From a virus, in IMG/VR virus record IMGVR_UViG_3300046522_000350, positions 1 to 43,408 of that record: a stretch of 43,408 bases of DNA; one strand, written 5' to 3'. The notes beneath the pieces are model-generated. The model saw only the letters and a program-made list of their open reading frames with translations, did not search any database and was not told where the DNA came from. The translations under genes and the position numbers were made by a program. Of the stretch, positions 1,167 through 43,172 are shown in pieces. Numbering within the stretch: the stretch's first letter is position 1; every line of letters begins with the position of its first letter.

Positions 1167-2912
1167 GTGAGCGAAATAGTCCGCTCCCCCTTCGGTCCGA
1201 TTGACCCGCGAGAAGGCTTCTTCTACTACGACGAGAAGAAGGCCACTCACGCAATCAACTTCATAGAAAAGCTGGTCGTCCACACTAAGGGCCGCCACGC
1301 TGGCGCTCCATTCATCCTTGACGAGTGGCAGAAGAACGAGATCGTTCGGCCACTCTTCGGAACGATGATGTTTGACGACCAGTACGAAGAGTACGTTCGT
1401 CAGTACCGTATTGCGTGGCTTGAGATGGCGCGCAAGAACGGGAAGAGTGAGCTTCTGTCAGCGTTCGCGCTTCTGGGCCTGGTGGGCGACTTCGAGGAAT
1501 CCGCCGAAGTCTATTCGGTGGCCGTCGACCGCGACCAGGCCGGTTTGGTCTACAACACCGCTAAGCGGATGGTCGAGCTAAACCCGATCCTGAACAACCG
1601 CCTAGAGATCATCGACTCTAAGAAGCGGATCATTGACCGGAAGACGAACAGCTTCTATCAGGTCTTGCCCGGTGACGCTGCGGGTGCCCTCGGCACTAAC
1701 CCGTCAATGGTTCTCTTCGATGAGGTCCTGACACAGAAGGACCGGCATCTCTGGGATTCCATGCGACAGGGCTTCGGTACCCGTCGACAGCCAATCATGA
1801 TTGCGGCCACGACAGCCGCATATCGAACCGCGGCCTTCGCTCTCGAAGAGCACGAACACTCGCTTCGTGTTCGCGAGGATCAGAACCTAGATCCCGCGCG
1901 ATTCGTGTTCGCGCGTAACGTGCCCGATGACTGGGACTGGAAAGACGAAGGCAAACCGCCCTCGGTCGAGCATCCGAAGGGAACGGGCTGGTATCTCGCG
2001 AATCCCGCCCTCGGTTCCTTCCTGAACATCAACAACCTTCGGGCCGAAGCGATGGAAGCGGCCGAGAAGCCTACGGCTCAGAACAGCTTCCGAGTGTTCC
2101 GGCTGAATCAGTGGGTGTCTCAGGCGAACCGGTGGCTCGACATGCACCTATGGGACGAGAACGGTACGCCGAAGGTCGACCGCGACCGGCTGAAGGGCCG
2201 TCCGTGCTTTGCCGGTATCGACCTGGCCGCTACGGGCGACTTCAACGCGTGGCTTCTCCTGTTCCCCGGTACGCCTACCGACCCGGACGCCGAAGGCTGG
2301 ACCGTGCTTCCCCATTTCTGGGTGCCACGGCCGGCAATTGAGAAGCGGTCGAACATGAAGAGCCACTTCGAGGTATGGGAGCGTGAAGGCTTCCTTACCG
2401 TGACCGAGGGGCCTACGACCGACTTCAAGGCAATCTTCCGACACATCGCGAAGGACGCCGAAGACTTCCGTATCCGCTTCTTCGGATACGACCCGTGGAA
2501 CGCGACTCAGCTTGTGAACGAGCTTGAGGAACACGGCCTTACGGCCGTGAAGGTGCCGCAGAGTGCCGCTCGACTCAATGACCCCTGTAAGGCCATTGAG
2601 AGCGCGCTAGCGGCCCGTGGACTGCACCACGGGGGGCACCCGGTGCTTCGTTGGATGGCTGACAATGTCGAGCTAGACGTGACCGGAGACGGTTTGGTGA
2701 AGCCGAGTAAGGCGAAGTCTGGCGAGAAGATCGACGGCATAGCCGCTCTCGCTAACGCCTTCTTCCTCACGGCTCTTCCCTCGGATGAAGAAGCGCATGT
2801 GACCTTCTTCAACTTCAACGAAGAGTATTCGGACGCCGAACTAGAGGCTCTTCTTACTCCTGCCACCAGGCAGGAGGAACGGGAAGCGTACTTCTTCCCC
2901 GACGACGATTAG
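1167..2912 (+). CDS. terL: Terminase large subunit
   Basis: 581 aa, GTG start. This is the packaging motor: an N-terminal ATPase and a C-terminal RNase H-like nuclease. Visible motifs are a Walker A-type ARKNGKSE (88-95), Walker B MVLFDE (181-186), and the nuclease aspartates in AGIDLAATGDF (D352 and D358). Length and motif order fit the phage terminase (Terminase_1) family. TerS is not adjacent on the linear map: it lies at 42711-43172, about 1.3 kb upstream across the circle junction, with the two tRNAs, a small gene and the HNH pair between them. Confidence 0.95.
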   Translation: MSEIVRSPFGPIDPREGFFYYDEKKATHAINFIEKLVVHTKGRHAGAPFILDEWQKNEIVRPLFGTMMFDDQYEEYVRQYRIAWLEMARKNGKSELLSAFALLGLVGDFEESAEVYSVAVDRDQAGLVYNTAKRMVELNPILNNRLEIIDSKKRIIDRKTNSFYQVLPGDAAGALGTNPSMVLFDEVLTQKDRHLWDSMRQGFGTRRQPIMIAATTAAYRTAAFALEEHEHSLRVREDQNLDPARFVFARNVPDDWDWKDEGKPPSVEHPKGTGWYLANPALGSFLNINNLRAEAMEAAEKPTAQNSFRVFRLNQWVSQANRWLDMHLWDENGTPKVDRDRLKGRPCFAGIDLAATGDFNAWLLLFPGTPTDPDAEGWTVLPHFWVPRPAIEKRSNMKSHFEVWEREGFLTVTEGPTTDFKAIFRHIAKDAEDFRIRFFGYDPWNATQLVNELEEHGLTAVKVPQSAARLNDPCKAIESALAARGLHHGGHPVLRWMADNVELDVTGDGLVKPSKAKSGEKIDGIAALANAFFLTALPSDEEAHVTFFNFNEEYSDAELEALLTPATRQEEREAYFFPDDD

Positions 2913-2919
2913 GAGATTC

Positions 2920-3108
2920 ATGGACCGGCCCAACCTGGGCCGCTCCCTCCGTTCCGTCGCGTCTTCCTTTGTCCCGAACGTCTTTCAGGTCGGCTCTCTC
3001 ACCTTTGGTGCGATGGCCGCCTATGACGTTGCGCGCCCTCTTGGGCACTTCGCGGTGGCCGTGTGCCTCGGGCTTATCGGGTACGCCACGGACGGGGGTA
3101 AGCGGTGA
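2920..3108 (+). CDS. Small membrane protein between TerL and portal
   Basis: 62 aa with a perfect AGGAG ribosome site five bases before the ATG. It has one or two hydrophobic segments (about residues 22-35 and 42-56: SLTFGAMAAY, FAVAVCLGLIGY). The stop overlaps the portal GTG as GTGA, so translation is probably coupled. I do not know a function. Small membrane proteins at this position occur in other actinophages as I recall, which is weak support for a conserved role. Confidence 0.75.
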   Translation: MDRPNLGRSLRSVASSFVPNVFQVGSLTFGAMAAYDVARPLGHFAVAVCLGLIGYATDGGKR

Positions 3109-4439
3109 GCCTGTTTACACGCATCGGAGAGATACGCGCATCCCTCGGCGGTCTCGCTTCCGATTGGGAACGGGACGTTGAAACGCTCGGCATTCGCACG
3201 GCTTCAGGCCGCAAGGTGAATCGCCGGAACAGTCTTCAGATGGTCGCGGTATACGCCTGTCAGTCCCTCATTGGCGATGCTGTCGCATCGCTTCCGGTGG
3301 ACCACTACACGACGATTACCGGGCGGAAGGAAGCCATTGCTCGGTCACCTCGTTGGGTGACTCAGCCGAACCCGTATCAGACCTCTTACGACTTCTGGTT
3401 TCGGGTTGTCATCAGCCTTCTGTCTGACGGTAACGCGTTCATCTACACCATGCGGAATGACCGGGGCGAGGTTCAGGCCCTTTACTGCCTGCACCCCTCT
3501 TACGTCTCGATTCTCGACGGCCCCCTAGGGGAAAACCGGTACGAGGTTACCGACGACCAGGGCAACATTCAGGGGCAGTACAACCGCTCTGAGATTCTGC
3601 ACATTGCGGCCTTCACGGTCCCCGGTAACAGCCGTGGCCTTTCCCCTCTGGACATGGCCCGAGAAGCTATCGGTCTCGGTCTCACGGCCGAGGAATTCGG
3701 GTCACGGTTCTTTGAGCAGGGAACCACGATGGCGGGTGTCATCGAGCATCCGGGGGCACCCCGACCGGATGAGGCGAAGCTACTTCGCGACATGTTCCGG
3801 AAGACTCACGCGGGTGTCAAGAATTCCCATTCGGTCGGTGTGCTGACCGGTGGGGCTCAATTCAAGCCGATCACGCTTTCCCCGGAACAGGCTCAGTTCT
3901 TGGAGACTCGGCGCTTCCAGAAGGCCGAGATTGCGCTTCTCTACCGCGTGCCCGCGTATCTGGTCGACTCCTCGGTTTCTTCTACCTGGGGAACCGGTAT
4001 CGAGGAACAGAACAAGTTCTTCGTAGACCAAACGCTAATGCCGTGGATTGTTCGTATCGAACAGGCCGTGTCGACCTTCCTTCTTCCCGGTCAGCAGTAC
4101 ATCAGGTTTAACGTCGATGCTCGACTTCGAGCTAAGACGAAGGACCGTTACGAGTCGTATCAGACGGCGCTCTCTAACGGCTTCCTGAACGCTGACGAGA
4201 TTCGGGCTATGGAAGACCTCGGCCCGCTCCCGAAGAAGCTCGGACAGCGGTATTACAGGCCGCTGAACCTGGGTGTAGTCGGCGAAGAGGATAAGGCCGC
4301 GAAGGAAGAGAATCCTTCGGCCGGCACAGCTCCCCCGACGCCTCCCGTGCCCCCCGCTGATCCGAATGCGGACCCGAATGCACAGCAGGACCCGAACGTT
4401 ACGGATCAGAAGGACAACGGCAATGCAAATGGAGCGTAG
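3105..4439 (+). CDS. Portal protein (HK97 family)
   Basis: 444 aa, GTG start coupled to the previous gene. The portal forms the dodecameric ring at the capsid vertex through which TerL pumps DNA. The region around YACQSLIGDAVASLPVDHY (about 49-67) and later segments such as EILHIAAF and EEFGSRFFEQG are typical of HK97-type portals, as are the length and the position between TerL and the prohead protease. The last 50 residues are low-complexity (P, D, N, Q rich) and may be disordered. A GTTTACACG site lies in codons 3-6. Confidence 0.93.
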   Translation: MSLFTRIGEIRASLGGLASDWERDVETLGIRTASGRKVNRRNSLQMVAVYACQSLIGDAVASLPVDHYTTITGRKEAIARSPRWVTQPNPYQTSYDFWFRVVISLLSDGNAFIYTMRNDRGEVQALYCLHPSYVSILDGPLGENRYEVTDDQGNIQGQYNRSEILHIAAFTVPGNSRGLSPLDMAREAIGLGLTAEEFGSRFFEQGTTMAGVIEHPGAPRPDEAKLLRDMFRKTHAGVKNSHSVGVLTGGAQFKPITLSPEQAQFLETRRFQKAEIALLYRVPAYLVDSSVSSTWGTGIEEQNKFFVDQTLMPWIVRIEQAVSTFLLPGQQYIRFNVDARLRAKTKDRYESYQTALSNGFLNADEIRAMEDLGPLPKKLGQRYYRPLNLGVVGEEDKAAKEENPSAGTAPPTPPVPPADPNADPNAQQDPNVTDQKDNGNANGA

Positions 4440-5103
4440 GGCGGTCCCTACTGAGTTCGAGGTTCGTTCCGAGGGCGGGAAGTTCAACTTCTACGGCTAC
4501 GCGCTGAAGTGGGACGCGCGCTCTCAGAACCTCGGCGGTTTCCGGGAACGTGTCGCACAGGGTGCGACCTCGGAGGCTATCGAGCTAGACGACATTCGGG
4601 CTCTTTACAACCATGACCCGAATATGGTTCTCGGCCGGAACCGAAGCAACACGCTTCGGCTTGCCGAGGATTCGACCGGTCTTCATTACGAAGTCGACAT
4701 GCCTGACACCACTTACGCGCGAGACCTGGCCGTGTCCATGGAACGTGGGGACGTGACTCAGTCGAGCTTCGGCTTCAAGGTGCGGTCCGATGGCGATACG
4801 TGGGCCGAGGACGACGACGGTTTTCCGCTTCGGACTCTGACCCGGATCAGCCTCTTTGATGTTTCGCCGGTTACCTACCCGGCTTATGCCGACTCCACTT
4901 CTGGTGTTGGTTCTCGCGCTCTGGCTTCTCTGGCCGAACAGCGCGGTATTTCGGTAGCGCGGCTGGATTCGCCCGAGGCGATCCGGGCCGCTATCCGAGG
5001 GGAAGACGCTCCGGCGCTAGATGAAGCGCGGACTCATTCTCTCGATCTGCGCGTGAGAGATCACGAATTCGTGACTCTGTCTCTTCGCGCGAAGCGGCTC
5101 TAG
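4423..5103 (+). CDS. Prohead maturation protease (HK97 family)
   Basis: 226 aa, starting at ATG 4423, which overlaps the portal end by 17 bases. It is a serine protease that processes the scaffold or capsid N terminus during head maturation. The FNFYGYALKWD start, the histidine in LYNHDPNMVLGR and the serine in TQSSFGFKV match the catalytic His and Ser regions of this family, followed by RTLTRISLFDVSPVTYPAY. It sits between portal and capsid as expected. No separate scaffold gene is visible; the first 100 or so residues of the capsid protein, rich in E, R and A, probably serve as the scaffolding delta domain. Confidence 0.93.
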   Translation: MQMERRAVPTEFEVRSEGGKFNFYGYALKWDARSQNLGGFRERVAQGATSEAIELDDIRALYNHDPNMVLGRNRSNTLRLAEDSTGLHYEVDMPDTTYARDLAVSMERGDVTQSSFGFKVRSDGDTWAEDDDGFPLRTLTRISLFDVSPVTYPAYADSTSGVGSRALASLAEQRGISVARLDSPEAIRAAIRGEDAPALDEARTHSLDLRVRDHEFVTLSLRAKRL

Positions 5104-5122
5104 GTCGCCTTTTTTTGGCCCC

Positions 5123-5139
5123 GAAACTAGTATTGGGAA
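5123..5139 (+). promoter_or_regulatory. CTAGTATT box before the capsid gene
   Basis: GAAACTAGTATTGGGAA lies just before the capsid start and provides its GGGA ribosome site. It is a member of the dispersed box family found throughout the genome and reads in the direction of transcription. I infer a repressor-binding stoperator-like site or other regulator site. A run of seven T precedes it at 5110-5116. Confidence 0.65.
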
Positions 5140-5144
5140 TGACT

Positions 5145-6329
5145 ATGGATTTCGCTGCGATGGCGAATGCTGCGCTCGAAGAGCGCATGAAGCTGGTTAC
5201 CGAGCTTCGTTCTGTCGAGGGTGACTCGAACCTGTCCGACGCTGAGAAGCGTGAGCGGGTCGAGCGAATCGACGCCGACCTGATCCGGCTTGAGGCCGAG
5301 GCGCGCGACGCTATCGAGCGTGGCGAGCGTGAGGCCGAGGTTCGCACCCTGGCCGCGCGTGCTGGTGGCCTGGTCGTGCCTGGCACCCCGGAGGCTCGCG
5401 GCGGTGAGCGTGACGAGGCTTCCGAGCTTCGCGCCCTGGCGCGCGGTGAGGTTGCGGGTGTCGACTTCGACCTTCGAACCGCGACTTCGGGCACGGCCGC
5501 GAATGCGGGTAACACCTACGCGAACACCTTTGTGGCTCAGGTCATCGAGGCTATGCGCGTCCGGTCTGACTTCTTCTCGAAGGCCCGAGTTCTTACTACG
5601 GGTTCCGGCGAAACGATGGAGTGGCCCGTCAAGAACGGCCGCCCGACCGCTGCGCAGGTTTCCGAGAACACGGCGTATGGCAAGAGTGACGAGAGCTGGT
5701 CGAAGACCAGCGTTGGCGCTTATAAGTACGGCGTGATTGTCGAGGCTACTAACGAGATCATTGATGACTCTCAGCTCGACATTCTCGGGATTCTCGCTCA
5801 GGACGCGGGCGAGGCTGTCGCCGATAAGGTAATGGCCGATCTTCTGGTCGGTAACGGCACCGGTAAGCCGTGGGGCTGGATCACTCGGTCTACGGGTGCG
5901 GTTAACGCCGCGAACCTGGCCGGTGTCAGCACTGACAACCTGATCGACCTTCAGCACTCGATTCTTCGGCCGTACCGAAAGAACGCGGTCTTCATGACCT
6001 CGGACTCTGCGGTTCAGAACCTGCGCAAGCTGAAGGACTCGACGGGTAACTACATCTGGCAGCCTTCGCTTCAGGCCGGGGCCCCGGACACCATTCTCGG
6101 CACGCCGATTCTGACGGACCCGAACATTGTCACTTCCGGTGCCGGTGCGAAGGTTCTCGTCTACGGCGACCCGAGTAAGTACCTGATTCGACAGGTGAAG
6201 AACCTTCGGGTTGTTCGCTCTGACGAGTACGGCTATGACCGTGACGTGGTCGCCTTCAAGGTGACGTGGCGCGGTTCGGGCGACCTGTTCGACCTGGCTT
6301 CCGTCAAGGCTCTGACCGTTACCGCGTAA
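5145..6329 (+). CDS. Major capsid protein (HK97 fold)
   Basis: 394 aa from ATG 5145, which has GGGA six bases upstream; an ATG at 5139 is possible but lies inside that site. Residues 1-115 are charged and helical (delta/scaffold domain, likely removed by the protease). The capsid domain starts near TSGTAANAGNTYAN, with N-arm, E-loop (EWPVKNGRPTAAQVSEN) and the A-domain. Segments such as GKPWGWI and VFMTSDSAVQNLRKLKD are characteristic of HK97-type capsid proteins. Placement directly after the protease confirms it. The CTAGTATT box overlaps the translation start region. Confidence 0.95.
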   Translation: MDFAAMANAALEERMKLVTELRSVEGDSNLSDAEKRERVERIDADLIRLEAEARDAIERGEREAEVRTLAARAGGLVVPGTPEARGGERDEASELRALARGEVAGVDFDLRTATSGTAANAGNTYANTFVAQVIEAMRVRSDFFSKARVLTTGSGETMEWPVKNGRPTAAQVSENTAYGKSDESWSKTSVGAYKYGVIVEATNEIIDDSQLDILGILAQDAGEAVADKVMADLLVGNGTGKPWGWITRSTGAVNAANLAGVSTDNLIDLQHSILRPYRKNAVFMTSDSAVQNLRKLKDSTGNYIWQPSLQAGAPDTILGTPILTDPNIVTSGAGAKVLVYGDPSKYLIRQVKNLRVVRSDEYGYDRDVVAFKVTWRGSGDLFDLASVKALTVTA

Positions 6330-6342
6330 TGGTCTATCGGCT

Positions 6343-6360
6343 CGGCCCCTTCGGGGGCCG
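6343..6360 (+). terminator. Hairpin after the capsid gene
   Basis: CGGCCCC-TTC(G)-GGGGCCG forms a strong hairpin 14 bases after the capsid stop. There is no U run, so it may only attenuate transcription or protect the capsid mRNA 3' end, giving more capsid than connector proteins. Confidence 0.5.
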
Positions 6361-6387
6361 GGCCGGTCCTGTCTTGAAGGGGCATTC

Positions 6388-6606
6388 ATGAAGGTTCGAA
6401 TTCTTGAGAGTGGGACCGGTCTTCTCGATGGAGTGCCGTTCCCGAGTGTTGGCGATGTGGTCGAGCTTCCTTCGGGACTGGCCGTGTCGCTTCTGAACGA
6501 CAAGCGCGCTGAGATCGTGGCCGGCAAAGCCGCTGAATCGCGCGAGACGGCCGTTTCTGCGGCCCCTGAGAAGCGCGGCCCCGGTAGGCCGCGGAAGTCC
6601 GCGTAA
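6388..6606 (+). CDS. Small head protein with AT-hook-like tail
   Basis: 72 aa with a GAAGGGG ribosome site. The N-terminal part (about 1-45) looks like a small beta domain; the C terminus ends KRGPGRPRKSA, and RGPGRPRK is an AT-hook-like minor-groove DNA-binding motif. Proteins with this layout directly after the capsid gene are frequent in actinophages, so a head-assembly or DNA-contacting role is plausible. I infer no specific function. Confidence 0.7.
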   Translation: MKVRILESGTGLLDGVPFPSVGDVVELPSGLAVSLLNDKRAEIVAGKAAESRETAVSAAPEKRGPGRPRKSA

Positions 6607-6615
6607 GGGGGCGTT

Positions 6616-7449
6616 GTGCGGTTTCTGAGCGGTAGGGCCGTGACTCTGCGGCACACCTTCCTAGACGACGAGACGCCTATGGTCGTCCCTGCCGTGACCG
6701 TGACCGTACGGGACGCATCCGGCGCGACCGTTTACACGGGCGACGCGACCAGCTCGGGTGACGAGTGGTCGGCCACCTTCCCCGCCGTACCCGAGGGCGT
6801 TTACACGGCCTCTTGGGTGGCCGGCACTTCGGCCACGGACCGCGAGACCTTCGAGGTAGTCGGGGGCTTCCTGTTCACCCTGCCTGAAGCGCGCGGTTCC
6901 GACATGGATCTAGCGGACGCTACGCGGTTCCCTACGGCCGAACTGAAGCACTACCGCGAGGTAGTTGAAGACGAGTTCGAGACGATCACGGCCCGCTCGT
7001 TCGTGCCGCGTACGGCACGCGTCGAGGTCGAGGCGGACGACAGCTCGACTCTGTTCCTGGGGTACTTCGATGTGTCCGCCCTGAAGGCCGTTGAAGGCCC
7101 CTCTGGGGCTGTCGACCTGGCCGGGTGGACCGTGGACCCCTCGGGCTTCCTGCGGGCTCCCTACGTCCTGGTGGACGGCGACCGATACACGGTCACCTTC
7201 ACGTACGGCTTCGGCCAGGTGCCCGAGGACGTGAAGCGCGCGGGCTTGCTGCGGCTTCGCTCCCTGCTTACTGCGGAACGGTCCGGCATCCCGGACCGCG
7301 CTACGGCCTTCGTTGCTGCCGAGGGCGGGAACTTCACTCTGGCCACGGCCGGACGGAACGGTTACGAGACAGGGATTCCCGAAGTCGACGCGACCCTTAC
7401 CCGGTACAAGTACCGGATTCTTCATGACGTGTTGGGGGTCTCGCGGTGA
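6616..7449 (+). CDS. Head-tail connector with Ig-like N-terminal domain
   Basis: 277 aa, GTG start with an AAGGGGG site. Residues 1-90 form a beta-rich Ig-like domain (VTVTVRDASGATVYTG, EGVYTASW). From about residue 95 (DLADATRFPTAELKHYREVVEDEFE) it resembles phage head-tail adaptor (gp6-like) proteins that bind below the portal. Two GTTTACACG sites (6730 and 6799) lie inside the Ig-like part and encode Val-Tyr-Thr in both. The fusion of a surface-type domain to a connector is unusual but seen in Streptomyces phages as I recall. Confidence 0.7.
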   Translation: MRFLSGRAVTLRHTFLDDETPMVVPAVTVTVRDASGATVYTGDATSSGDEWSATFPAVPEGVYTASWVAGTSATDRETFEVVGGFLFTLPEARGSDMDLADATRFPTAELKHYREVVEDEFETITARSFVPRTARVEVEADDSSTLFLGYFDVSALKAVEGPSGAVDLAGWTVDPSGFLRAPYVLVDGDRYTVTFTYGFGQVPEDVKRAGLLRLRSLLTAERSGIPDRATAFVAAEGGNFTLATAGRNGYETGIPEVDATLTRYKYRILHDVLGVSR

Positions 7450-7868
7450 GTACGAACGCATTCGCCGCTAAGGCCGCCCTACGGGACATGATCAAGGCCC
7501 TTCCCTCGCTTGCTGGTTATCAAGTCACTTGGGGCTATCCGACCAGGAACCCCGAACGCCGATGGGTGTTCGTGGGTGAAGTTCTCTGGCCGGATTCGCA
7601 ATGGGTGACCAATCGAAGCCGTGAAGAGGTCTTCGAGGTGAGCGTCATTGTGAACTGTCAGCTCTCCGGAGCGACCTCGGAAGAGGTCGAGGGGGAGCTT
7701 CAGCGCATGGCCGCAGGCATTGAGGACGGCCTGAAGGCCGCTCCCAATCTCGGTATTCCCTCCGTCGTCGTGACGGATTTCGTTCCTAAGAAGCTCTCTA
7801 GCTTCCCCTCGGATCAAGTCTATGAAGGACAGTTCGAGGCCATTGTTCGTGTGAAGGCGAGGCTATGA
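7446..7868 (+). CDS. Probable neck or tail-completion protein
   Basis: 140 aa, GTG start overlapping the previous stop as GTGA. It has an alpha-beta layout with an N-terminal helix (AAKAALRDMIKALPSL), a strand-rich middle (FEVSVIVNCQLS) and a C-terminal strand ending EAIVRVKARL. Size, position between the connector and the major tail protein, and the pattern of a ferredoxin-like sandwich fit a tail terminator or neck protein. The assignment rests mainly on gene order. Confidence 0.6.
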   Translation: MSTNAFAAKAALRDMIKALPSLAGYQVTWGYPTRNPERRWVFVGEVLWPDSQWVTNRSREEVFEVSVIVNCQLSGATSEEVEGELQRMAAGIEDGLKAAPNLGIPSVVVTDFVPKKLSSFPSDQVYEGQFEAIVRVKARL

Positions 7869-8029
7869 AGACCGTTGCTTATAACGGGCCTTATTCGGCG
7901 GTAGAGGTTCCCTCGCTGGGTCTTACCGCCGAGAAGGGCGACCCTATCGAGGTCGCCGACGATATCGCCCAGGCGCTTCTTCGCCAGGGGTGGCAGGAGA
8001 TCAAGGCGAAGAAGGAGACGGCTAAGTAA
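7865..8029 (+). CDS. Small protein, 54 aa, in the neck operon
   Basis: An uninterrupted frame from ATG 7865 (overlapping the previous stop as ATGA) to TAA 8027-8029 (overlapping the next start as TAATG). The protein begins MKTVAYNGPYSAVEVPSL and ends in a charged helix, ALLRQGWQEIKAKKETAK. Its first half resembles the small beta proteins that follow capsid genes in actinophages. Double stop/start overlap strongly supports it as a translated gene in the head-tail operon; function unknown. Confidence 0.8.
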   Translation: MKTVAYNGPYSAVEVPSLGLTAEKGDPIEVADDIAQALLRQGWQEIKAKKETAK

Positions 8030-8997
8030 TGGCCACGATCTTTGATCAGTACATCGGTGTTATTGACGAGTCGGTTTACGGCACGGCGGTTGCACCTACG
8101 AAGTTCTTCGAGTTCACCGACGAAGGCATTGAAGGCAAGTACGAGCGGATTGATTCCGAGGGAATCAGGGCCACTACTCGCGTTCTTCGAAGCGACCGCT
8201 TCGCGGTTAACCCGAAGGGTGCCGAGGGTGACGTGAAGATGGAGGTTCTTTCCTCCGGGTTCGACTTCTGGCTGAAGCACATGTTCGGCGGCCTCACTTC
8301 GAGTGCCCCTACGGGCGGGTTCATCACTCATACCGCGACCCTCGGCGACCTGAACGGTAAGAGCTTCACGGCTCAGGTGGGCCGGGTGGACAACACCGGA
8401 ACCCTGACCCCGTTCACCTATCAGGGCGGGAAGGTCAAGGAATGGGAGCTTACGAACGCCGTTGACGAGCTTCTGAAGCTCTCTGTGACGTGCGACTTCG
8501 CTAAGGAAACCATCGGGGCCGGTGCGGGGGCCTATGCGGCGGCCACGCCCACTTATGTGGCGAACACGAAGCTCTTTAGCTTCGCTGGTGGCACGGTCAC
8601 CGTGGGCGGTTCTGCCTTCCAGATCAATGACTTCTCCCTGAAGGCCAGTAACGGCCTGAAGGATGACCGGTACTTCATTCGGAACACCGGTATGAAGTCG
8701 GAGCCTCTTGAGGCTGAGCTTCGCAAGTATGAGTGGTCGATCAAGGGCGAGTTCGGCGGAGTCACGCAAATTAACCGCGTGGCCGCTGCTATCGCGAGTG
8801 GTGCTGTCGCTGACATCACGGTTCTTTGGGATGGGCCGGACAACAGTCAGTTTAAGGTTCAGATGCCCTTCGCCCGGTTCGATGAAGGCCCGGTTTCCGT
8901 GGGCGGCTTCGACGTCGTCTCTCAGGATCTCTCGGGTATCGCGCTGACGGACGGTACCGCGTCCCCTGTCACGGTCACGTACAAGGCTCTTCAGTAA
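8029..8997 (+). CDS. Major tail protein
   Basis: 322 aa. It forms the stacked rings of the tail tube. The sequence is beta-rich with many short G/T/V stretches, starts MATIFDQYIGVIDESVYGT and carries a KVKEWELTNAVDELLKLSV segment typical of actinophage tube proteins. Gene order (neck proteins, tube, HK97 gp10-like protein, tail chaperones, tape measure) agrees. It is translationally coupled to the small gene before it. The C-terminal 70 residues may be an extra surface domain. Confidence 0.88.
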   Translation: MATIFDQYIGVIDESVYGTAVAPTKFFEFTDEGIEGKYERIDSEGIRATTRVLRSDRFAVNPKGAEGDVKMEVLSSGFDFWLKHMFGGLTSSAPTGGFITHTATLGDLNGKSFTAQVGRVDNTGTLTPFTYQGGKVKEWELTNAVDELLKLSVTCDFAKETIGAGAGAYAAATPTYVANTKLFSFAGGTVTVGGSAFQINDFSLKASNGLKDDRYFIRNTGMKSEPLEAELRKYEWSIKGEFGGVTQINRVAAAIASGAVADITVLWDGPDNSQFKVQMPFARFDEGPVSVGGFDVVSQDLSGIALTDGTASPVTVTYKALQ

Positions 8998-9002
8998 GCC
9001 TT

Positions 9003-9017
9003 GAAACTAGTATTGGG
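9003..9017 (+). promoter_or_regulatory. CTAGTATT box after the tail tube gene
   Basis: GAAACTAGTATTGGG lies between the tube-protein stop and the next start, followed by the ribosome site GGGGGGACTGGG. It matches the box before the capsid gene exactly over 15 bases and points with transcription. No -10 sequence follows at the right distance, so I read it as a regulator-binding site and not a promoter. Confidence 0.6.
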
Positions 9018-9028
9018 GGGACTGGGTT

Positions 9029-33624: not shown

Positions 33625-33639
33625 CCGCCCTCCCTTACG

Positions 33640-33657: not shown

Positions 33658-33671
33658 ATGGGGTGGCGGAA

Positions 33672-34885: not shown

Positions 34886-34905
34886 GGGCGATCCTTCGCG
34901 CGTTC

Positions 34906-35205: not shown

Positions 35206-35225
35206 GGCTGTATCTCCCTTGACGG

Positions 35226-35295: not shown

Positions 35296-35298
35296 GCG

Positions 35299-35742
35299 CT
35301 ACTTAATGAACTCCAGAGAGCACGCGTCCGGCGTTCCCTGGGGGGCCGGGCACGCCCACGCGCGCCACGTACCGGGCTTGTTCCGGTACGGCTTTTCGAG
35401 GAATCGCTTCGTGCCGTGCGGGCAGGTGGGCGGGGTGCCGTGCGGGGTGGCGGCCTGGCCGGCAGAAACGCCCTGAGTGGCCGTCTGAGCGCCGTTCTGG
35501 CCGCCCTGGTCAAACTGTCCGGGGTGAGTCACCGGACGCGCCCCAAGCTGCGCCCCAAGGATCTCTTCGGCCCGAAGAGCGGTAACCGCTCCGCCGATCA
35601 GAGCGGAGACACCGGAAGACTGAATGCCTTCGAGATGGTCGGTCAGCTCGGCGAGGGAATCGGCCTTGACCACGATCCACGTAGCGTCATGGCCGCCGTG
35701 CGCCTTCAGGGTCACGGAAAACTTCTCGGTGTTCTCAGACAT
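35299..35742 (-). CDS. Hypothetical protein with C-terminal cysteine motif
   Basis: 147 aa. An N-terminal alpha-beta domain (FSVTLKAHGGHDATWIVVKADSLAELTDHL, residues 8-40), a Q/G/A-rich linker (70-105), then CPHGTKRFLEK ... WACPAPQGTPDACSL with three cysteines and a histidine, a possible zinc site. It lies between the Cas4/RecB nuclease and replication genes and overlaps the nuclease stop, so a single-strand binding or recombination role is conceivable. Not recognised. Confidence 0.75.
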   Translation of the reverse strand: MSENTEKFSVTLKAHGGHDATWIVVKADSLAELTDHLEGIQSSGVSALIGGAVTALRAEEILGAQLGARPVTHPGQFDQGGQNGAQTATQGVSAGQAATPHGTPPTCPHGTKRFLEKPYRNKPGTWRAWACPAPQGTPDACSLEFIK

Positions 35743-36568
35743 TCACACTCTCTTCGTAGGGGTACAGGCGGGCGTCAACGCCGTTGAAGTCGCAGAATCG
35801 CCGGACCGTACAGGTACGGCACGCGTCGCCAGGGTTGGGAAGGAAGAGGCCGAGTCGAACGGCCTTATCCATGTTGCGGAACCATCGCGTGACCTTCTCG
35901 CGCGAGTAGTCCTGAAGGTTCCACGGGTCGGTAGGGGCGTTGTTCTTCGCCATGAAGTAATCGCCGAAGCCAGGCTTCACGCCGAACAGGTCATCTAGGG
36001 CGTGGTCGTAAATGGCTAGCTGGAAGGCCGTGTCAGGGAGCTTCGTTCCGGTCTTCAGGTCCCTTACCCGAAGGTGTCCGTCCGGGTATTCCATGACCTG
36101 ATCAATGAAGCCGCGGATCGTGATTCCGCCGAGGTCGAGAGTGAATGGAAGCTCTACAGCGGGCATTCCGTCGACCGGTTGCCACACGCGTTCAGGGGCT
36201 TCTATGGCGTACTCGAAGTACGCTTCTACCTGATCCCGTCCGCGCTCTCTGCGCCTCTTGATATCGGTCTCAGGCTTCGTGACTCCCCCGGTGAGCCATC
36301 GGGAAGTGTCCGGCTCGATAGCCAGGGCCGAAGTCATTTCCCGGTCCCACGCTTCTTCGAACCATTCGGTCATCTGGTCGGGGCCGTAGGCCCTGAAGGA
36401 CCGTTCCCATTTCTCGATGGCCTCATGAAAGGCCGTCCCTTGGATGAACCAGGCCGCTTGATTCTGGGGGGCCTTAGCGATCTTTTCGAGTCGGTACGCT
36501 TCGCCGCATCTGACGAAGCTCGAATACTGGGAGACGGACCGGTGAACCAGGGGTTCCGTCACACTCAC
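35735..36568 (-). CDS. Cas4/RecB-like PD-(D/E)XK nuclease with Fe-S cysteines
   Basis: 277 aa, GTG start coupled as GTGA. The nuclease core shows QGTAFHEAIE (motif I), GFIDQVMEYPDGHLRVRDLKTG (D ... D-L-K) and QLAIYDHAL (Q-x3-Y). One cysteine near the N terminus (FVRCGEAY) and three at the C terminus (CRTCTVRRFC) form the pattern of a Cas4/AddB-type 4Fe-4S cluster. Phage proteins of this class act as exonucleases in recombination. No Cas genes or CRISPR repeats are nearby, so it is not part of a CRISPR system. Confidence 0.9.
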   Translation of the reverse strand: MSVTEPLVHRSVSQYSSFVRCGEAYRLEKIAKAPQNQAAWFIQGTAFHEAIEKWERSFRAYGPDQMTEWFEEAWDREMTSALAIEPDTSRWLTGGVTKPETDIKRRRERGRDQVEAYFEYAIEAPERVWQPVDGMPAVELPFTLDLGGITIRGFIDQVMEYPDGHLRVRDLKTGTKLPDTAFQLAIYDHALDDLFGVKPGFGDYFMAKNNAPTDPWNLQDYSREKVTRWFRNMDKAVRLGLFLPNPGDACRTCTVRRFCDFNGVDARLYPYEESVNV

Positions 36569-36807
36569 TCTCCGGCCGGAGTCTCGACACCCTCGGCCAC
36601 GTTGGCGATCTCGCCCAGGAAGGCCGCAAGGGTGACCCCGTCAACGAACTTCGGTACAGCGGCGTTCGAGAGCTTCACGGCGGTGCCGTTCACGACCAGC
36701 TCGACCACGTTCCGCCCCATGCCAGCATCGAAGATCGGGCGAACGGTGACCGGGTGGCCGTCGAGGTCGGCGAACTTCATAGCGGGGGCGTCCTCGAAGG
36801 GGTTCAT
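36565..36807 (-). CDS. Hypothetical protein, 80 aa, first gene of the recombination-replication operon
   Basis: Starts MNPFEDAPAMKFADLDGHPVTV; a small beta-rich N-terminal half is followed by VPKFVDGVTLAAFLGEIANVAE. Its stop overlaps the nuclease GTG. Similar small genes sit before Cas4-type nucleases in other actinophages as I recall, so it may be a partner of the nuclease. Function unknown. Confidence 0.75.
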   Translation of the reverse strand: MNPFEDAPAMKFADLDGHPVTVRPIFDAGMGRNVVELVVNGTAVKLSNAAVPKFVDGVTLAAFLGEIANVAEGVETPAGE

Positions 36808-37961: not shown

Positions 37962-38444
37962 CTATCGGGAACCGGAGGGGGCTTCTATCTTGGGAGCGTC
38001 CGCGCTCTCCCCTTCTTCTTCCACGCGAATCAGGCTGTCACCATCCTGGGGGCGACGCTTCGAGTAGTAGAAGCCACCCGTAGAAGAAGCAGGGTTCGGG
38101 GGCATGTCGCGCCGATAGCAGACCACCACATCGGCGGCCTTTATCTCCGCAAGCCACTTGTCGACCATCCGGGCCTTCACGGGCGGGATGGCGTCGCCCT
38201 GTTCTCGGCGACTGTGCAACCGGAGCATGGTTGCGGGCTTAGCGTGCGCGTGCTCACCCTTGATCTTCCAGGGGAGGAACCGCGAGTGATCGGGACGAGT
38301 CTTCGCGAGACCAGCGTCACGAAGCTGCCAGTACACGGCACCCTTCGTAACGCCGTACATCTCGGCAATCTCCTCGTACGTCTTACCCTTCTGACGAAGC
38401 GCTCTTAGCACGTCGCTCGAAGGTAGTTGGCGCGGGGCCGGCAT
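37962..38444 (-). CDS. Immunity repressor-like HTH protein
   Basis: 160 aa from ATG 38444 (AAAGGG eight bases upstream). Residues 22-43 are a helix-turn-helix (KTYEEIAEMYGVTKGAVYWQLR). The following FLPWKIKGEHAHAKPATMLRLHSRR, then KWLAEIKAADVVVCYR and a G-F-Y-Y end, are from memory very like the repressors of cluster A mycobacteriophages, which bind one operator and many stoperators. With the integrase next door, its own promoter and terminator, and the dispersed boxes, it is the best candidate for the lysogeny repressor. Confidence 0.8.
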   Translation of the reverse strand: MPAPRQLPSSDVLRALRQKGKTYEEIAEMYGVTKGAVYWQLRDAGLAKTRPDHSRFLPWKIKGEHAHAKPATMLRLHSRREQGDAIPPVKARMVDKWLAEIKAADVVVCYRRDMPPNPASSTGGFYYSKRRPQDGDSLIRVEEEGESADAPKIEAPSGSR

Positions 38445-38842: not shown

Positions 38843-39883
38843 ATGGCCCGTACCGCTACGCCAAAACTTAGTTTCGCGAAGGAAACCTTCATCCGGCAGA
38901 GGTGCGCCACCACCACGTCACGACAGACCCGGTACAGCTACGTCAGTCTTCTGAACCGCTTCGAGAAGGTCATGAAGGACTGCCACACGGGCTCGATTCG
39001 GGCTCATCACCTCGAAGACTGGTGGTATGGCGAAGGGGGCCTGTCGGACACGGCAGGGAGTCAGACCCTCGGCAACTACCGCAACTCGATGAAGCAATTC
39101 CTGTCGTTCTGCTACCGCCGAGAGTGGAACCCCTACGGTCCGGAAATCCTTCTCGACGGCATCCGCGAGAAGTCCACCAGGACCAACCGGAACCGGTACC
39201 GCATGACTCGGGCGGAACTTCGTCGGCTCATTGCTGCGGCCGAGGACCCGCGAGACATCGCCCTGATTTGCTTCGTAGCGTGCACGGGCGTTCGCATCTC
39301 CGAAGCCCTCGGTATGAGGTATCGGGACGTGTCTTTCTCGAAGGGAGAGCTTTACGTGTATCTCCCGAAGGTGAAACAGGAAGTCGTGTATCCCCTGGCC
39401 TCGGATCTCGAACAGGCCCTTCGGGAGTGGCTTACCGCCTATTCGGCTCAGGTCGGCAAGCTGAAGCCGACTTACTACCTGTTCCCGACTATGCACGGAC
39501 GGAAGTTCACGAAGGGCGGGGGGTGGAGTCCGGCCGGTCTCTACAATCCCGTAAACCCGATCCAACAGCCTCGGATCATCCTTGCGCCGATTGCTGAGCG
39601 GGCCGAAATCGAGCTTGAAGAGGGCGACGGGTGGCACACCGTGCGCCGGTCGTTCGCGCGCATCCTGTATGACGACTGTGTCGCCATGGGGCACGATGCG
39701 GCCCTTCGAGTCGTTCAGGCCGCCCTCAATCACGCGAGTGTGCAGACGACGGAGCGCTACCTAGGGTTGAACCTCGAACGGCAACAGTTCCATCGGATCA
39801 TGAAGGGACAGCCGTTCCTCACGGCGGACGTTGACCCCGGTAAGATTGTGGCGTTGGACGAGCGAAGGGCGGGCCGTGGCTAG
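38843..39883 (+). CDS. int: Tyrosine integrase
   Basis: 346 aa from ATG 38843, which has AGAAGGA upstream; an in-frame extension to 38699 would pass through the promoter region. It integrates and excises the prophage. N-terminal SAM-like core-binding domain (about 10-110) and catalytic domain with R151 (CTGVRISEAL), K178 or nearby lysine, H265-x-x-R268 (WHTVRRSF), H297 (ALNHASVQTT) and nucleophile Y306 (TERYLGL). The rightward orientation, against the neighbouring early genes, is typical of a lysogeny module. Confidence 0.95.
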   Translation: MARTATPKLSFAKETFIRQRCATTTSRQTRYSYVSLLNRFEKVMKDCHTGSIRAHHLEDWWYGEGGLSDTAGSQTLGNYRNSMKQFLSFCYRREWNPYGPEILLDGIREKSTRTNRNRYRMTRAELRRLIAAAEDPRDIALICFVACTGVRISEALGMRYRDVSFSKGELYVYLPKVKQEVVYPLASDLEQALREWLTAYSAQVGKLKPTYYLFPTMHGRKFTKGGGWSPAGLYNPVNPIQQPRIILAPIAERAEIELEEGDGWHTVRRSFARILYDDCVAMGHDAALRVVQAALNHASVQTTERYLGLNLERQQFHRIMKGQPFLTADVDPGKIVALDERRAGRG

Positions 39884-40272: not shown

Positions 40273-40949
40273 CACAACCCCCCGTCGTCCTGCTCGACGT
40301 TCTCTCTGTGAACGTCCCTGTCAATCGGCATGATCACGCCCCGGAACGTGGGGCCTATCTTGATCAGGATTGGCTCTTTCGCGTTGAAGACGCACATGTC
40401 TAGGCATCGCTCTAGGTTGGCGTCCCCCGTCTTCACCTTCGGGGCCTTCACCTTCGAGAACCGGGCCAGTAGCGCAGCGTCGAACGCGACCAGCTCGGGG
40501 AGGGACGGCGGACGGCCGGCAAGTCGTGTAAACAGGTCGTCGATGAAGTCCCAGACAGGCTCAGCCGTGGCCGAGAGATCCTGTCCGGCCGTAGGGGTGT
40601 CGTTGTTGCCGGGGCGGAACACCAGGCCGTCACCGGGCTTCACTTCGAGCCTGCCGAAGCCCTTCTTATCCTTCCTGCCCGCGCTATCGAGGTCGGCCAA
40701 CACCGACCGGTCTACGTGGACCGTTAGGCCGCCCTGGGGGCCGCTGTAGTCCTCCACGGGGCAAGCATCCTGCCCGATGGCGTACCCGTCCGTACCGGTG
40801 GCCCGTAGGCCGTCCGGAGACAGCTCTAGCCGCGCGGTCTTCACCATGGACCGGGCCGGAAGGAAGGCCAGGGCGTTATACGCGACCCTGGCCAGTTCCT
40901 CACTCGAAGCGGTCGCTACGGCTTCACTCACAGTCGTTCTCGGCTCCAT
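40269..40949 (-). CDS. DNA sliding clamp (DnaN beta-clamp-like)
   Basis: 226 aa. Segments fit a shortened beta clamp: AYNALAFLPARSMVKTARLELSPDGLRATGTDGYAIGQD at the N terminus, HVDRSVLADLDSAGR in the middle, and CVFNAKEPILIKIGPTFRGVIMPID near the C terminus, where DnaN has its P-F-R-x-x-I-M-P hydrophobic-groove strand. Host DnaN has about 370 aa, so one domain is missing and a different ring stoichiometry is possible. It would recruit host polymerase, repair or late-transcription proteins to phage DNA. Confidence 0.82.
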   Translation of the reverse strand: MEPRTTVSEAVATASSEELARVAYNALAFLPARSMVKTARLELSPDGLRATGTDGYAIGQDACPVEDYSGPQGGLTVHVDRSVLADLDSAGRKDKKGFGRLEVKPGDGLVFRPGNNDTPTAGQDLSATAEPVWDFIDDLFTRLAGRPPSLPELVAFDAALLARFSKVKAPKVKTGDANLERCLDMCVFNAKEPILIKIGPTFRGVIMPIDRDVHRENVEQDDGGLW

Positions 40950-41043
40950 GAAGGTCTCTGAGAATGCGCTCCCGCGTCTCCGCGTCGAGCGTGCTTAGCT
41001 CGACCGTTTCCCACTCTCCGGATTCCGTGGCGTTCGTCGCCAT
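40924..41043 (-). CDS. Possible micro-protein overlapping clamp and membrane genes
   Basis: 39 aa, ATG 41043 to TGA 40924: MATNATESGEWETVELST followed by a charged helix ETRERILRDLHGAEND. The composition is protein-like, but it overlaps gene 40928-41176 almost completely in another frame and its ribosome site is weak. It could be the real gene, with the membrane protein ending shorter in life than on paper, or a chance frame. Confidence 0.4.
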   Translation of the reverse strand: MATNATESGEWETVELSTLDAETRERILRDLHGAENDCE

Positions 41044-41176
41044 GAAGATCGTCACTGAGCTTTTCCTTCCAAGACTGCCAAAGGTCAATGAAGGCCAGGG
41101 CCAGAAAACCGGTAAGGGCGAACAGACCAGCGAACAGAAGGCCGTATTCCGTGATTACGGCCAGTTCCTCGTTCAC
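40928..41176 (-). CDS. Small membrane protein
   Basis: 82 aa, GTG start coupled to the upstream gene. Residues 9-33 (TEYGLLFAGLFALTGFLALAFIDLW) form one membrane helix. The C-terminal half is basic and low-quality (GDERHGIRRVGNGRAKHARRGDAG) and overlaps both the 39-codon frame and the clamp start. Function unknown; small membrane proteins in early operons often modify the host envelope. Confidence 0.65.
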   Translation of the reverse strand: MNEELAVITEYGLLFAGLFALTGFLALAFIDLWQSWKEKLSDDLHGDERHGIRRVGNGRAKHARRGDAGAHSQRPSWSRERL

Positions 41177-41358
41177 TCGGGGGTTCCGTAGCTAACGGCG
41201 TACTGATAGGCCGAGAAGGCGTTTCGCATCCGGTAGGCGGCTTCGTGAAGCTCGCGCTTTCCCTTCGTGGCCGCTACGTGAAGTTGCGCCACGGCGGTTT
41301 CGTAGTGCGGAAGGCCCTCAAAGGGGCCGATCATCTGAAGAGCCTTGACCAGAGTCAC
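41173..41358 (-). CDS. Hypothetical helical protein, 61 aa
   Basis: GTG 41358 with CGGGAAGG upstream is preferred over a TTG at 41382 that lies inside the CTAGTATT box. The protein is helical (VKALQMIGPFEG, ELHEAAYRMRNAFSAYQYAV). Not recognised. Its stop overlaps the membrane gene start. Confidence 0.7.
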   Translation of the reverse strand: MTLVKALQMIGPFEGLPHYETAVAQLHVAATKGKRELHEAAYRMRNAFSAYQYAVSYGTPE

Positions 41359-41375
41359 AGAAATGCCTTCCCGAG

Positions 41376-41392
41376 TTCCCAATACTAGTTTC
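41376..41392 (-). promoter_or_regulatory. CTAGTATT box at a stop codon
   Basis: GAAACTAGTATTGGGAA on the minus strand, identical to the boxes at 5123 and 32524. It includes the TAG stop of gene 41385-41597 and precedes the next gene. No promoter -10 is nearby. Confidence 0.65.
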
Positions 41393-41597
41393 CGGCCCGA
41401 GCAATACGGGCCATAGCCGAAGCCGCACGGCTCTTCTTCACGGGCTTAGGGGCCGGGCTGGTGGTGCTGTAGCGGAGAATTCCGCCCCCGGCTTCCACGC
41501 GGCCGGCAAAGTCGTGCTTGAAGGACGGAGAGCGGTCCTCGGGACCGTTCTCGACGTACCGATTCGTAGCCGCAACAGTCTTCGGGTGAAGGAACAC
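41385..41597 (-). CDS. Hypothetical protein, 70 aa, first gene of the clamp operon
   Basis: GTG start with AAAGAGG upstream. Basic, with an A/K/P-rich C terminus (SPAPKPVKKSRAASAMARIARAGN) that could bind nucleic acid. Not recognised. GTTTAAAC (41617-41624) lies in the leader. Confidence 0.65.
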   Translation of the reverse strand: MFLHPKTVAATNRYVENGPEDRSPSFKHDFAGRVEAGGGILRYSTTSPAPKPVKKSRAASAMARIARAGN

Positions 41598-41616
41598 GGA
41601 GCCTCTTTCCTGGGCG

Positions 41617-41680
41617 GTTTAAACAGGCTTTCCGGCCCCCTCTCGGGGCCGCCCTGCTGACGTTCCAAATACTAGGTACG
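41617..41680 (-). promoter_or_regulatory. CTAGTATT box and GTTTAAAC site before the clamp operon
   Basis: Box GTACCTAGTATTTGGAA (41663-41680) with -35-like TTGGAA, a TCAGCAG sequence and GTTTAAAC (41617-41624). The -10 at the right distance (CGAGAG) is poor. It is the only candidate promoter region for this leftward operon. Confidence 0.5.
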
Positions 41681-41689
41681 CTCCCCTGG

Positions 41690-41996
41690 CGGTTGCAAGA
41701 ACCCCCAGCTCAGGGCCCACGTAGTGGTGCCTCGGTCATGCCAACAGGTCTACAGCTAGCGCCGTAGGGGGTAAGGGGGTCGGCTTGAGTGAGCGGAGCG
41801 AGCGAGAGCCGGGGGGATCGGGGGACAGAGATAGCTATAGAGCTACTGCGAACGAGAGAGAGCAGTAGTAGAAGGGCACCCTTCCGGGTGCCCTATAGAG
41901 AAGGAATCTTCTAGAGCCAGGGCTTACCCGCCCTGGCTTCTAACAGTTCTATAGCTAATGAAGGGGGCACCCCCCAGGAAGGGGGGCACCCCACCC
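41690..41996 (+). other. Hairpin-rich gap before the HNH gene
   Basis: About 300 bases without a gene. It holds CTACTGC-N12-GCAGTAG (41844-41869), GGGCACCC-TTCC-GGGTGCCC (41875-41894), GCCAGGGC-TTACCC-GCCCTGGC (41916-41937), a GAGCGAGCGAGAG stretch (41797-41809) and three CTATAG copies within 120 bases. The hairpins may include terminators and the start of the rightward late transcript, but I see no convincing -35/-10 pair. Confidence 0.5.
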
Positions 41997-42320
41997 ATGC
42001 CATACAGCATGTGCTCTCGACATAAGAAGCTCTATCCCCTAGGCACACAGTGCCTTCTCTGCACTACTGCACCACGTAGACACAAGAGCAAGAACACGCG
42101 CACGCGTGGACACTATGACTATCAATGGCAGAAAGTAAGAGCAGAAGCCATAAGGCTTCAGCCCTACTGCCTATTCTGCGGTACAGGCAATGACCTAACC
42201 GGAGATCACATCATCCCGCTAAAGGCGGGAGGCACGAACACACTAGATAACGTTCGTGTCCTATGTCGGTCATGCAATACACGAAGAGAGAATGATTACC
42301 GAAAAGGTAATCGGTACTAG
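41997..42320 (+). CDS. HNH endonuclease before TerS
   Basis: 107 aa from ATG 41997 (GGAAGGGGGG upstream). Two cysteine knuckles near the N terminus (CSRH ... CLLC), a basic linker, then a classical HNH domain: CLFCG, GDHIIPLKAGG, DNVRVLCRSCN. Codon use is clearly different from its neighbours, with AGA, CTA and CCC-poor codons and lower GC, which suggests a later acquisition. Place directly before TerS matches HNH nucleases that work with terminase; a homing nuclease is the other reading. Confidence 0.88.
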   Translation: MPYSMCSRHKKLYPLGTQCLLCTTAPRRHKSKNTRTRGHYDYQWQKVRAEAIRLQPYCLFCGTGNDLTGDHIIPLKAGGTNTLDNVRVLCRSCNTRRENDYRKGNRY

Positions 42321-42710
42321 CCCACTCCCCCCACCATTCACCCCCGAGCCTTCAGGCTCGACCAGGACTCACAGAGCAACCGACGGCACCCTGAAAGGGG
42401 GACCGTACTAAGGGCCTGTGACCAGCGATCCGAGAACACACCAGATCAAGCACTGTCAAGCGAAACTGGCTCAGATTCTCAGGATTTTTTGGGGAAGGGG
42501 GATCTGAAAGATTTTTGGGACGCTTCCCCGCACCCGCCGCCTTCCCTCGGAAGGAGTGCGCGGGGGTTCGCCTGAGTTCGTGGGATTCCGGATCAGTCCG
42601 GATAGCGGAGCGTGCAACCGCCTAGGCCGCGTATTCGTGCGGATTCCTCCGCACGGAAATCAGAACTGTTTCCCAGAGAAGGGAATTCCGAACCGAAAGA
42701 GGTTACCGCC
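42321..42710 (+). other. Non-coding region before TerS, candidate cos/pac site
   Basis: 390 bases without a convincing gene. It holds two copies of GATTTTT(T)GGG 27 bases apart (42483-42494 and 42510-42520), CCTTCC-CTC-GGAAGG inside a larger G/C hairpin (about 42528-42568), TCCGGA-TCAG-TCCGGA near 42587-42602 and CGTGCGGA-TTCC-TCCGCACG (42636-42655). Iterated short sites next to terS are where packaging sites usually lie, so this is the best candidate for terminase binding or cutting. Confidence 0.45.
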
Positions 42711-43172
42711 ATGGCTGGTCCCCCGCCGATGCCGTCAAGGCTGGTCGAGCTGAAGGGCAATCCCTCGAAGAAGAAGGTTTCCGGTATCGAACCGGAGCCT
42801 ACGAAGGGTGCACCTAGGCCGCCTGCCGATCTTCAGGGCGAAGCCCTGGCCGAGTGGGGCCGTGTGGTCCCCGAGCTAGACAAGCTCGGGCTTCTGACGA
42901 AGGTGGACCGGGCTTATCTGGTGGCTTACTGCGAGGCTTGGGCGACCTTCGATCAGGCCAGGGCCGCAATGCGGGAATACGGGCCTCTAGTGGCCGGCAG
43001 AGACGGCGGAATGGTCAAGAATCCAGCCGCTCAGGTCATGAGAGACGCGGCTGATCTCATGTTGAAGTTTGGTAGCCGCTTCGGCTTGTCTCCCTCGGAC
43101 CGTACGCGCCTCTCTGTGCCGTCCGGGAACGAGGAAGGCCCCGATGCTCAGGTCTTGTCTCTCCTGAGCTGA
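42711..43172 (+). CDS. terS: Terminase small subunit (P27-like)
   Basis: 153 aa from ATG 42711 (GAAAGAGG upstream). It recognises the packaging site and loads TerL. The start MAGPPPMPSRLVELKGNPSKK followed by PPADLQGEALAEWGRVVPELDKLGLLTKVDRAYLVAYCEAWATFDQA is the pattern of P27-family small terminases. The C-terminal KFGSRFGLSPSDRTRLSV is also typical. TerL follows after the tRNAs and HNH genes across the circle junction. Confidence 0.92.
   Translation: MAGPPPMPSRLVELKGNPSKKKVSGIEPEPTKGAPRPPADLQGEALAEWGRVVPELDKLGLLTKVDRAYLVAYCEAWATFDQARAAMREYGPLVAGRDGGMVKNPAAQVMRDAADLMLKFGSRFGLSPSDRTRLSVPSGNEEGPDAQVLSLLS

Follow-up and report, generated by a model that had tools for sequence, protein, structure and literature searches.

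The 43.4-kb virus record IMGVR_UViG_3300046522_000350, analyzed here over its whole length of 43,408 nucleotides (hereafter, the window), raises the question of how the hexamer GCCGGC came to be confined to a single octamer, GGCCGGCA, that always faces the same way. An exact search finds 27 copies of GCCGGC in the window, all of them within GGCCGGCA and all on the + strand, and no copy of the reversed octamer TGCCGGCC, exactly as the original prediction had it. Across the whole genome, the pattern resembles a trace left by self-protection of the phage against bacterial restriction. We lean, by a modest degree, toward two superposed layers of selection: a context layer, in which NaeI-type restriction is combined with cover by a phage methylase, and an orientation layer, in which the phage escapes a restriction system that depends on opposed sites.

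Frequency, context and strand of the octamer

Dinucleotide shuffles of the window (n = 100) yield about 29 copies of GCCGGC, with 27 seen, and 2.9 copies of GGCCGGCA (maximum 8), again with 27 seen. Under a synonymous-codon null model that holds the proteins and the codon usage, 43 +/- 5 copies of GCCGGC, 11.6 +/- 1.6 of GGCCGGCA and 1.8 of TGCCGGCC are expected; the value for GGCCGGCA is inflated because intergenic sites are left unshuffled in this model. Contexts of the form [ACT]GCCGGC[AGT] are absent from the window, with 15 expected. Nine of the octamers are sense in + genes, nine are antisense in − genes and nine fall into intergenic or uncalled DNA, so that 18 of the 27 are inside called genes. 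Thus, coding direction does not account for the one-strand pattern, a point on which the original prediction was right. The nearest-neighbor motifs in three genomes of type X (see below) show no strand bias either ([ACT]CCGGCA, 34/28; GGCCGGA, 28/26), and codon bias or transcription direction can be ruled out.

The probability of about 1 in 10^8 that had been attached to 27 of 27 sites on one strand turns out to be too strong: the background + to − ratio for the octamer, obtained from relatives, is about 69:31 rather than 50:50, which gives a P of about 4e-5 (0.02 if the inflated ratio from the null model of the window itself is used). When the contigs that carry the methyltransferase MTX described below are pooled (74/74 on the + strand, or 95/95 with the terL contigs), P drops much further, but these contigs have homologous sites in common, which are not independent.

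Context types and phage methyltransferases

Comparison with 48 TerL relatives and 18 longer records reveals three types of GCCGGC context; these contigs are environmental, some may derive from a common genome, and their homologous sites are not independent. Type X relatives contain GCCGGC only as GGCCGGCA (95/95 on the + strand), type Y relatives contain GGCCGGC followed by any base (GGCCGGCN), with few other contexts, and type Z relatives are nearly free of GCCGGC (8 copies vs 106 expected). At shared positions, the GGCCGGC heptamer is often retained, and the eighth base tracks the type of the lineage. Type X is scattered across the TerL tree, which implies repeated switching between types.

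The type X context goes together with a gene for a mini C5-cytosine DNA methyltransferase, denoted MTX (Table 1), which is flanked by the primase block and the metallophosphoesterase gene. The enzyme is intact, with the catalytic motifs SPPCQ and ENV, and is conserved in relatives. Close to the small terminase gene, type Y phages encode another, split C5-methyltransferase, denoted MTY. MTX is present in six distinct contigs, all of type X, whereas the 14 contigs that cover the junction without MTX and have GCCGGC all show other contexts (Fisher test, 2.6e-5). More generally, the presence of MTX coincides with exclusivity of GGCCGGCA in 21 of 21 contigs, and both traits change five times on the dnaB tree, where strong branch support is available for only two of the five independent pairs, a number insufficient for a formal sign test. 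No contig that covers both loci combines MTX with MTY (3/3 and 8/8). The near-complete record G007 has neither gene and no GCCGGC at all, and GGCCGGC is likewise lost from the Z phages in which no C5 methylase was found. In the fragment G018, MTY is missing from its locus and the contexts are Y-like; the MTX locus is outside this fragment.

Of 199 sampled Streptomyces genomes, 31 have a gene for a nuclease of the NaeI family, which recognizes GCCGGC. The phage clade additionally avoids CTCGAG, GAGCTC and AGGCCT, and restriction pressure therefore appears to be strong. Strain G020, which carries a prophage, has a shortage of GCCGGC in its own DNA (195 copies vs 511 expected in 280 kb), although it yielded no NaeI-family gene. 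A search for the NgoMIV family in two hosts, run with no positive control, was empty. Literature searches yielded nothing direct on GGCCGGCA or on NaeI in connection with methylases of Streptomyces phages.

These observations are compatible with a scenario in which NaeI-type restriction, common in Streptomyces hosts, purges unprotected GCCGGC from the phage genome while certain contexts are shielded by the C5-methyltransferase that the phage itself encodes, so that only methylase-covered sites would survive. MTX would cover GCCGGCA and MTY would cover GGCCGGC (that is, GCCGGCC on the other strand); GGCCGGCA would then be the single octamer that meets both footprints and may represent what remained after a switch from MTY to MTX. 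A GGCC-specific MTY seems unlikely given that AGGCCT is still avoided in MTY phages. The restriction escape put forward in the original prediction is retained in this scenario as far as restriction pressure is concerned, in the form of two layers; that the purge of flanks tracks a phage C5-methyltransferase and NaeI-type pressure had not been suspected.

Unrelated phages, for which the context effect was assessed partly on 10–20 kb pieces, include two further MTX carriers with the same preference. In the 81.7-kb phage G021 (L326-L330), which encodes an MTX homolog with 58% identity, all 18 copies of GCCGGC are in the palindrome TGCCGGCA, with 102 copies expected. The cultured Streptomyces phage Success (L340; MTX homolog with 56% identity) has 46 copies of GCCGGC in the 50 kb examined, every one of which reads GCCGGCA on one strand but not on the other (p = 1e-20); these heptamers occur in both directions (20/26). 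In the two phages combined, GCCGGC is found only as GCCGGCA (64/64 sites). GCCGGCA is the common denominator of the MTX carriers that have a context effect. In Success as well as in L290, L278, L287 and L300, the A of GCCGGCA is on one side only, and TGCCGGCA is missing (e.g., 0/46 in Success). As a separate observation, G021 contains no CCGCGG, CGATCG, CTCGAG, GGCGCC, GTCGAC, AGCGCT or TCGCGA, with 52–76 copies expected for each.

Orientation of the sites and competing explanations

The octamer is not the only motif of the window with a fixed direction: GTCGAGG behaves in the same way (Table 1). In X-type genomes, its counts on the two strands are 36/0, vs 18/22 for GTCGAGA and 40/45 for GTCGAGC, and over the whole clade they are 175/27, with one-way distributions in most relatives and one main exception, G003 (40/21). 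In Haloferax, GTCGAGG is a non-palindromic N6-methyladenine (m6A) motif (PMC11001535), and the match to the phage motif is one of sequence only. The + counts of both GGCCGGC and GTCGAGG are above the codon null but those of their symmetric neighbors are raised equally (2.2–2.7 times), so that the signal consists in depletion of the reverse copy, and positive enrichment of a polar signal is ruled out.

The same constraint is detectable outside the MTX phages. Among the Y phages and the two prophages, the strand counts are 37/1 for A-type and 85/33 for G/T-type sites (Fisher p = 5e-4), and only one of the 34 reversed sites is TGCCGGCC, against 27% expected (p = 3e-4). Therefore, a constraint on the A-type octamer exists without MTX. 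Conversely, Success tolerates both directions of its heptamer, and a single orientation is thus not a necessary result of MTX-type methylation. Orientation calls for a pairwise or polar process because a single protected site cannot sense its own direction in the genome. Segments of Streptomyces host chromosomes (280 and 120 kb) show no clear strand bias for GGCCGGCA (8/7 and 15/21) or for GTCGAGG (127/106 and 46/74), and when about 110 unrelated contigs were screened systematically for further 7-mers confined to one strand, nothing comparable emerged, although 20-kb pieces offer less power.

A known solution of this kind is provided by phage T7, whose 36 EcoP15 sites all have one orientation, with the result that the phage escapes EcoP15I; for systems that modify only one strand, dependence on opposed sites is a way to avoid self-damage (PMC3874151). 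By analogy, GGCCGGCA (or GCCGGCA), like GTCGAGG, may be the asymmetric site of a one-strand-modifying system that cuts only between opposed sites; a genome in which all copies face one way would escape such a system, and TGCCGGCC would be separately selected against in this clade. We infer that the surviving sites are methylated and protected and that an orientation-sensitive system of this kind exists. Escape from two-site restriction, although unproven, fits the orientation best in our analysis. The escape from an asymmetric system envisaged in the original prediction survives in part: the one-way component resembles the T7/EcoP15I case and is shared by GTCGAGG.

Other explanations concern either the flanks or the direction. 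The flanks might be a property of host nucleases, such that different NaeI-type enzymes spare different flanks, the X, Y and Z phages meet different hosts and the methylases are passengers. NaeI does have refractory sites (PMC4081073), several unrelated phages spare GCCGGCA, including one family without MTX, and many MTX homologs come without the context; against this, context and methylase gene switch together five times among close relatives, and Z phages that appear to have no C5 methylase have lost GGCCGGC as well, which makes the host-nuclease explanation somewhat unlikely. Direction, in turn, could result from strand-parked methyl marks: if MTX methylates one strand, each site would be left without protection in one of the two daughters after replication, and marks placed on the same strand throughout would shield one daughter molecule completely from a single-site nuclease, so that a single orientation would be selected directly through MTX. 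In type III systems, methylation of one strand is known to create such a daughter-strand problem (PMC3874151), the orientation is absolute in the MTX phages (the pooled counts given above), and independence of transcription is accounted for, a strand being continuous along the genome. However, Success combines an MTX homolog and single-sided heptamers with both orientations, TGCCGGCC is avoided also in MTY phages that have no MTX, and GTCGAGG is left unexplained; strand parking of the marks is therefore improbable. Doubtful, too, is the broader proposition that phage methyltransferases of extended (7–8 bp) specificity rewrite the flanks of host sites genome-wide, such that site context by itself would tell which methylase a phage carries, with one-strand marks keeping the sites on one strand and one daughter protected.

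A polar signal acting in one direction on the phage genome (Chi, KOPS, or a primase or packaging motif), the other reading offered by the original prediction, would agree with the use of one strand throughout, with independence of transcription and with the even spacing of the sites described below. Nevertheless, it has to be considered very unlikely: the + copies are no more numerous than their symmetric neighbors, only the reverse is depleted, and both directions are found in Success. A KOPS/FtsK-type sequence is not supported, given the lack of clear bias in the host segments, and for a Chi-like, primase or packaging signal the eighth base is too variable among lineages and the motif is lacking in the Z relatives. 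Stoperators of the L5 type, which are oriented with transcription and mostly intergenic, do not match the equal numbers of sense and antisense sites and the prevalence of sites within genes. Plain avoidance of GCCGGC is contradicted by the 27 remaining sites. If harm from methylation (type IV restriction) were the sole cause, relatives lacking a C5-methyltransferase should be free of the pressure, yet they lack GCCGGC.

Several observations weigh against the two-layer explanation itself. Many other MTX homologs (46–63% identity) show no context effect; the respective phages could be free of NaeI-type pressure, or their enzymes could differ in specificity. In an unrelated family (L290, L286, L278, L287 and L300), the sites are mostly CGCCGGCA, with the GCCGGCA context accompanied by an MTY-like gene only, without MTX, and in L258, L261 and L271, GCCGGC is almost wholly confined to GCCGGCT (10/10, 12/12 and 6/7), apparently another context type. 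Thus, methylases and contexts are combined in various ways, and GCCGGCA also occurs apart from MTX. In unrelated phages, MTY relatives with 60–72% identity are mostly without an effect on the GGCC flank, from which it follows that the N-terminal half alone does not fix the specificity. MTX is small for a specificity of 7–8 bp, and HGCCGGCA (H = A, C or T), which an MTX that covers GCCGGCA should tolerate, is absent from the MTX phages, which implies either recent ancestry from MTY phages or a requirement of MTX for a 5' G. On the side of orientation, GGCCGGCA would be rather long as a type III site, and no orientation-sensitive enzyme came to light, no search for a candidate having been made. 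Finally, the 27 sites are spaced more evenly than random (coefficient of variation, CV, 0.59; P = 0.004), which the two-layer explanation does not predict; the CV is also low in G009 and G012, where part of the sites are shared.

The phage genome and its relation to known systems

The window most likely represents a temperate Streptomyces phage because TerL relatives are encoded in two Streptomyces genomes, in one of them far inside a 399-kb scaffold. The rightward arm (about 1–19.6 kb) comprises packaging, structural and lysis genes (TerL, portal, protease, capsid, tape measure and endolysin), and the leftward arm (about 19.7–41.6 kb) encodes a class II ribonucleotide reductase (RNR), a sigma-like regulator, metallophosphoesterase, the C5-methyltransferase, primase, RusA, a DnaB-like helicase and an exonuclease. 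A small terminase subunit of the Terminase_4 family and an integrase are also encoded.

Table 1. Coordinates of the octamers and other features in the window
Feature	Coordinates	Strand	Remarks
GGCCGGCA	2329..2336	+	in TerL; heptamer retained across relatives, eighth base variable
GGCCGGCA	4319..4326	+	
GGCCGGCA	6519..6526	+	
GGCCGGCA	6819..6826	+	
GGCCGGCA	10237..10244	+	
GGCCGGCA	11241..11248	+	
GGCCGGCA	12934..12941	+	
GGCCGGCA	14620..14627	+	
GGCCGGCA	16588..16595	+	intergenic/uncalled
GGCCGGCA	18660..18667	+	intergenic/uncalled
GGCCGGCA	18784..18791	+	intergenic/uncalled
GGCCGGCA	21421..21428	+	antisense, leftward gene
GGCCGGCA	22638..22645	+	intergenic/uncalled
GGCCGGCA	22705..22712	+	intergenic/uncalled
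GGCCGGCA	26130..26137	+	intergenic/uncalled
GGCCGGCA	26636..26643	+	intergenic/uncalled
GGCCGGCA	26702..26709	+	intergenic/uncalled
GGCCGGCA	28575..28582	+	antisense, RNR gene
GGCCGGCA	30108..30115	+	antisense, RNR gene
GGCCGGCA	31670..31677	+	antisense, metallophosphoesterase gene
GGCCGGCA	32844..32851	+	antisense, primase gene
GGCCGGCA	34697..34704	+	antisense, DnaB-like helicase gene
GGCCGGCA	35457..35464	+	antisense
GGCCGGCA	38436..38443	+	intergenic/uncalled
GGCCGGCA	40514..40521	+	antisense
GGCCGGCA	41501..41508	+	antisense
GGCCGGCA	42992..42999	+	in small terminase gene
MTX, 212-aa mini C5-cytosine DNA methyltransferase	31892..32530	-	PF00145, 4.8e-7; phrog_363, 1.3e-39
Interval holding MTY in Y-type relatives	40950..42611		MTY absent from the window
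GTCGAGG, second one-way motif	684..36766 (span)	+	20 on + (first 684-690, last 36760-36766), 0 on -
Tyrosine integrase	38843..39883	+	PF00589, 1.8e-19
GTTTAAAC	20106, 20561, 21248, 21615, 24725, 25359, 26199, 35226, 41617, 11002		intergenic, except 11002 (in gene)
AAATACTAGG(TTCG)	20579, 21265, 25377, 28238, 33644, 35282, 36823, 37873, 41667	+	intergenic repeat, leftward arm

Several further motifs are noticeable. The hexamer TTTAAA occurs in the window only as GTTTAAAC (10/10; nine intergenic copies and one in a gene), and the relatives show the identical octamer context (11/11, 9/9 and 9/9); several copies are immediately upstream of a CAAATACTAGGTTCG repeat, and the element looks like an operator or promoter. 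The nine copies of AAATACTAGG(TTCG), some of which are preceded by CGCTGACAA repeats, are possibly regulatory. In Z relatives, AAATTT is nearly always within CAAATTTG. The Z relatives G005, G006, G010, G013, G014 and G017 also have a strongly one-way GGGGGAG (79/1), a motif that is biased in a Streptomyces chromosome segment as well (59/11 in 280 kb); it is a candidate KOPS-like sequence, although the genes of these phages are all on one strand.

If the two-layer explanation is correct, the context of restriction sites would reveal, from sequence alone, the specificity of orphan phage methylases, which are mostly uncharacterized, and the natural methylase swaps between close phage relatives would amount to an evolution experiment on re-adaptation to restriction. 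The one-way layer would be a possible second case of the T7/EcoP15I kind and, together with GTCGAGG, would point to orientation-sensitive restriction in Streptomyces.

Each component of this picture has a counterpart among known systems. MTX is 55–61% identical, over its full length, to mini C5-methyltransferases of mycobacteriophages and Streptomyces phages (Wanda, Baka, Pinto, Success and ToastyFinz), among which ToastyFinz differs in having no GCCGGC context effect. As with the orphan methyltransferases of the lactococcal 936 phages (PMC4190342), a phage DNA methyltransferase apparently shields restriction sites; for the 936 phages, protection was shown with enzymes, whereas in the window it is suggested by a site context that changes with the methylase swap. 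The purge of GCCGGC in relatives where no C5 methylase was found is what NaeI-type (type IIE) restriction and ordinary site avoidance would produce, but ordinary avoidance removes all sites, whereas the window keeps a single octamer context in one orientation. Like the EcoP15I sites of T7, the copies of an asymmetric site all face one way genome-wide (27/0 in the window, 95/0 in the X contigs and 20/0 for GTCGAGG). To our knowledge, no type III system acts on GGCCGGCA; the octamer differs from the T7 sites in having the palindromic core of a restriction site, the other flanks of which have been purged as well.

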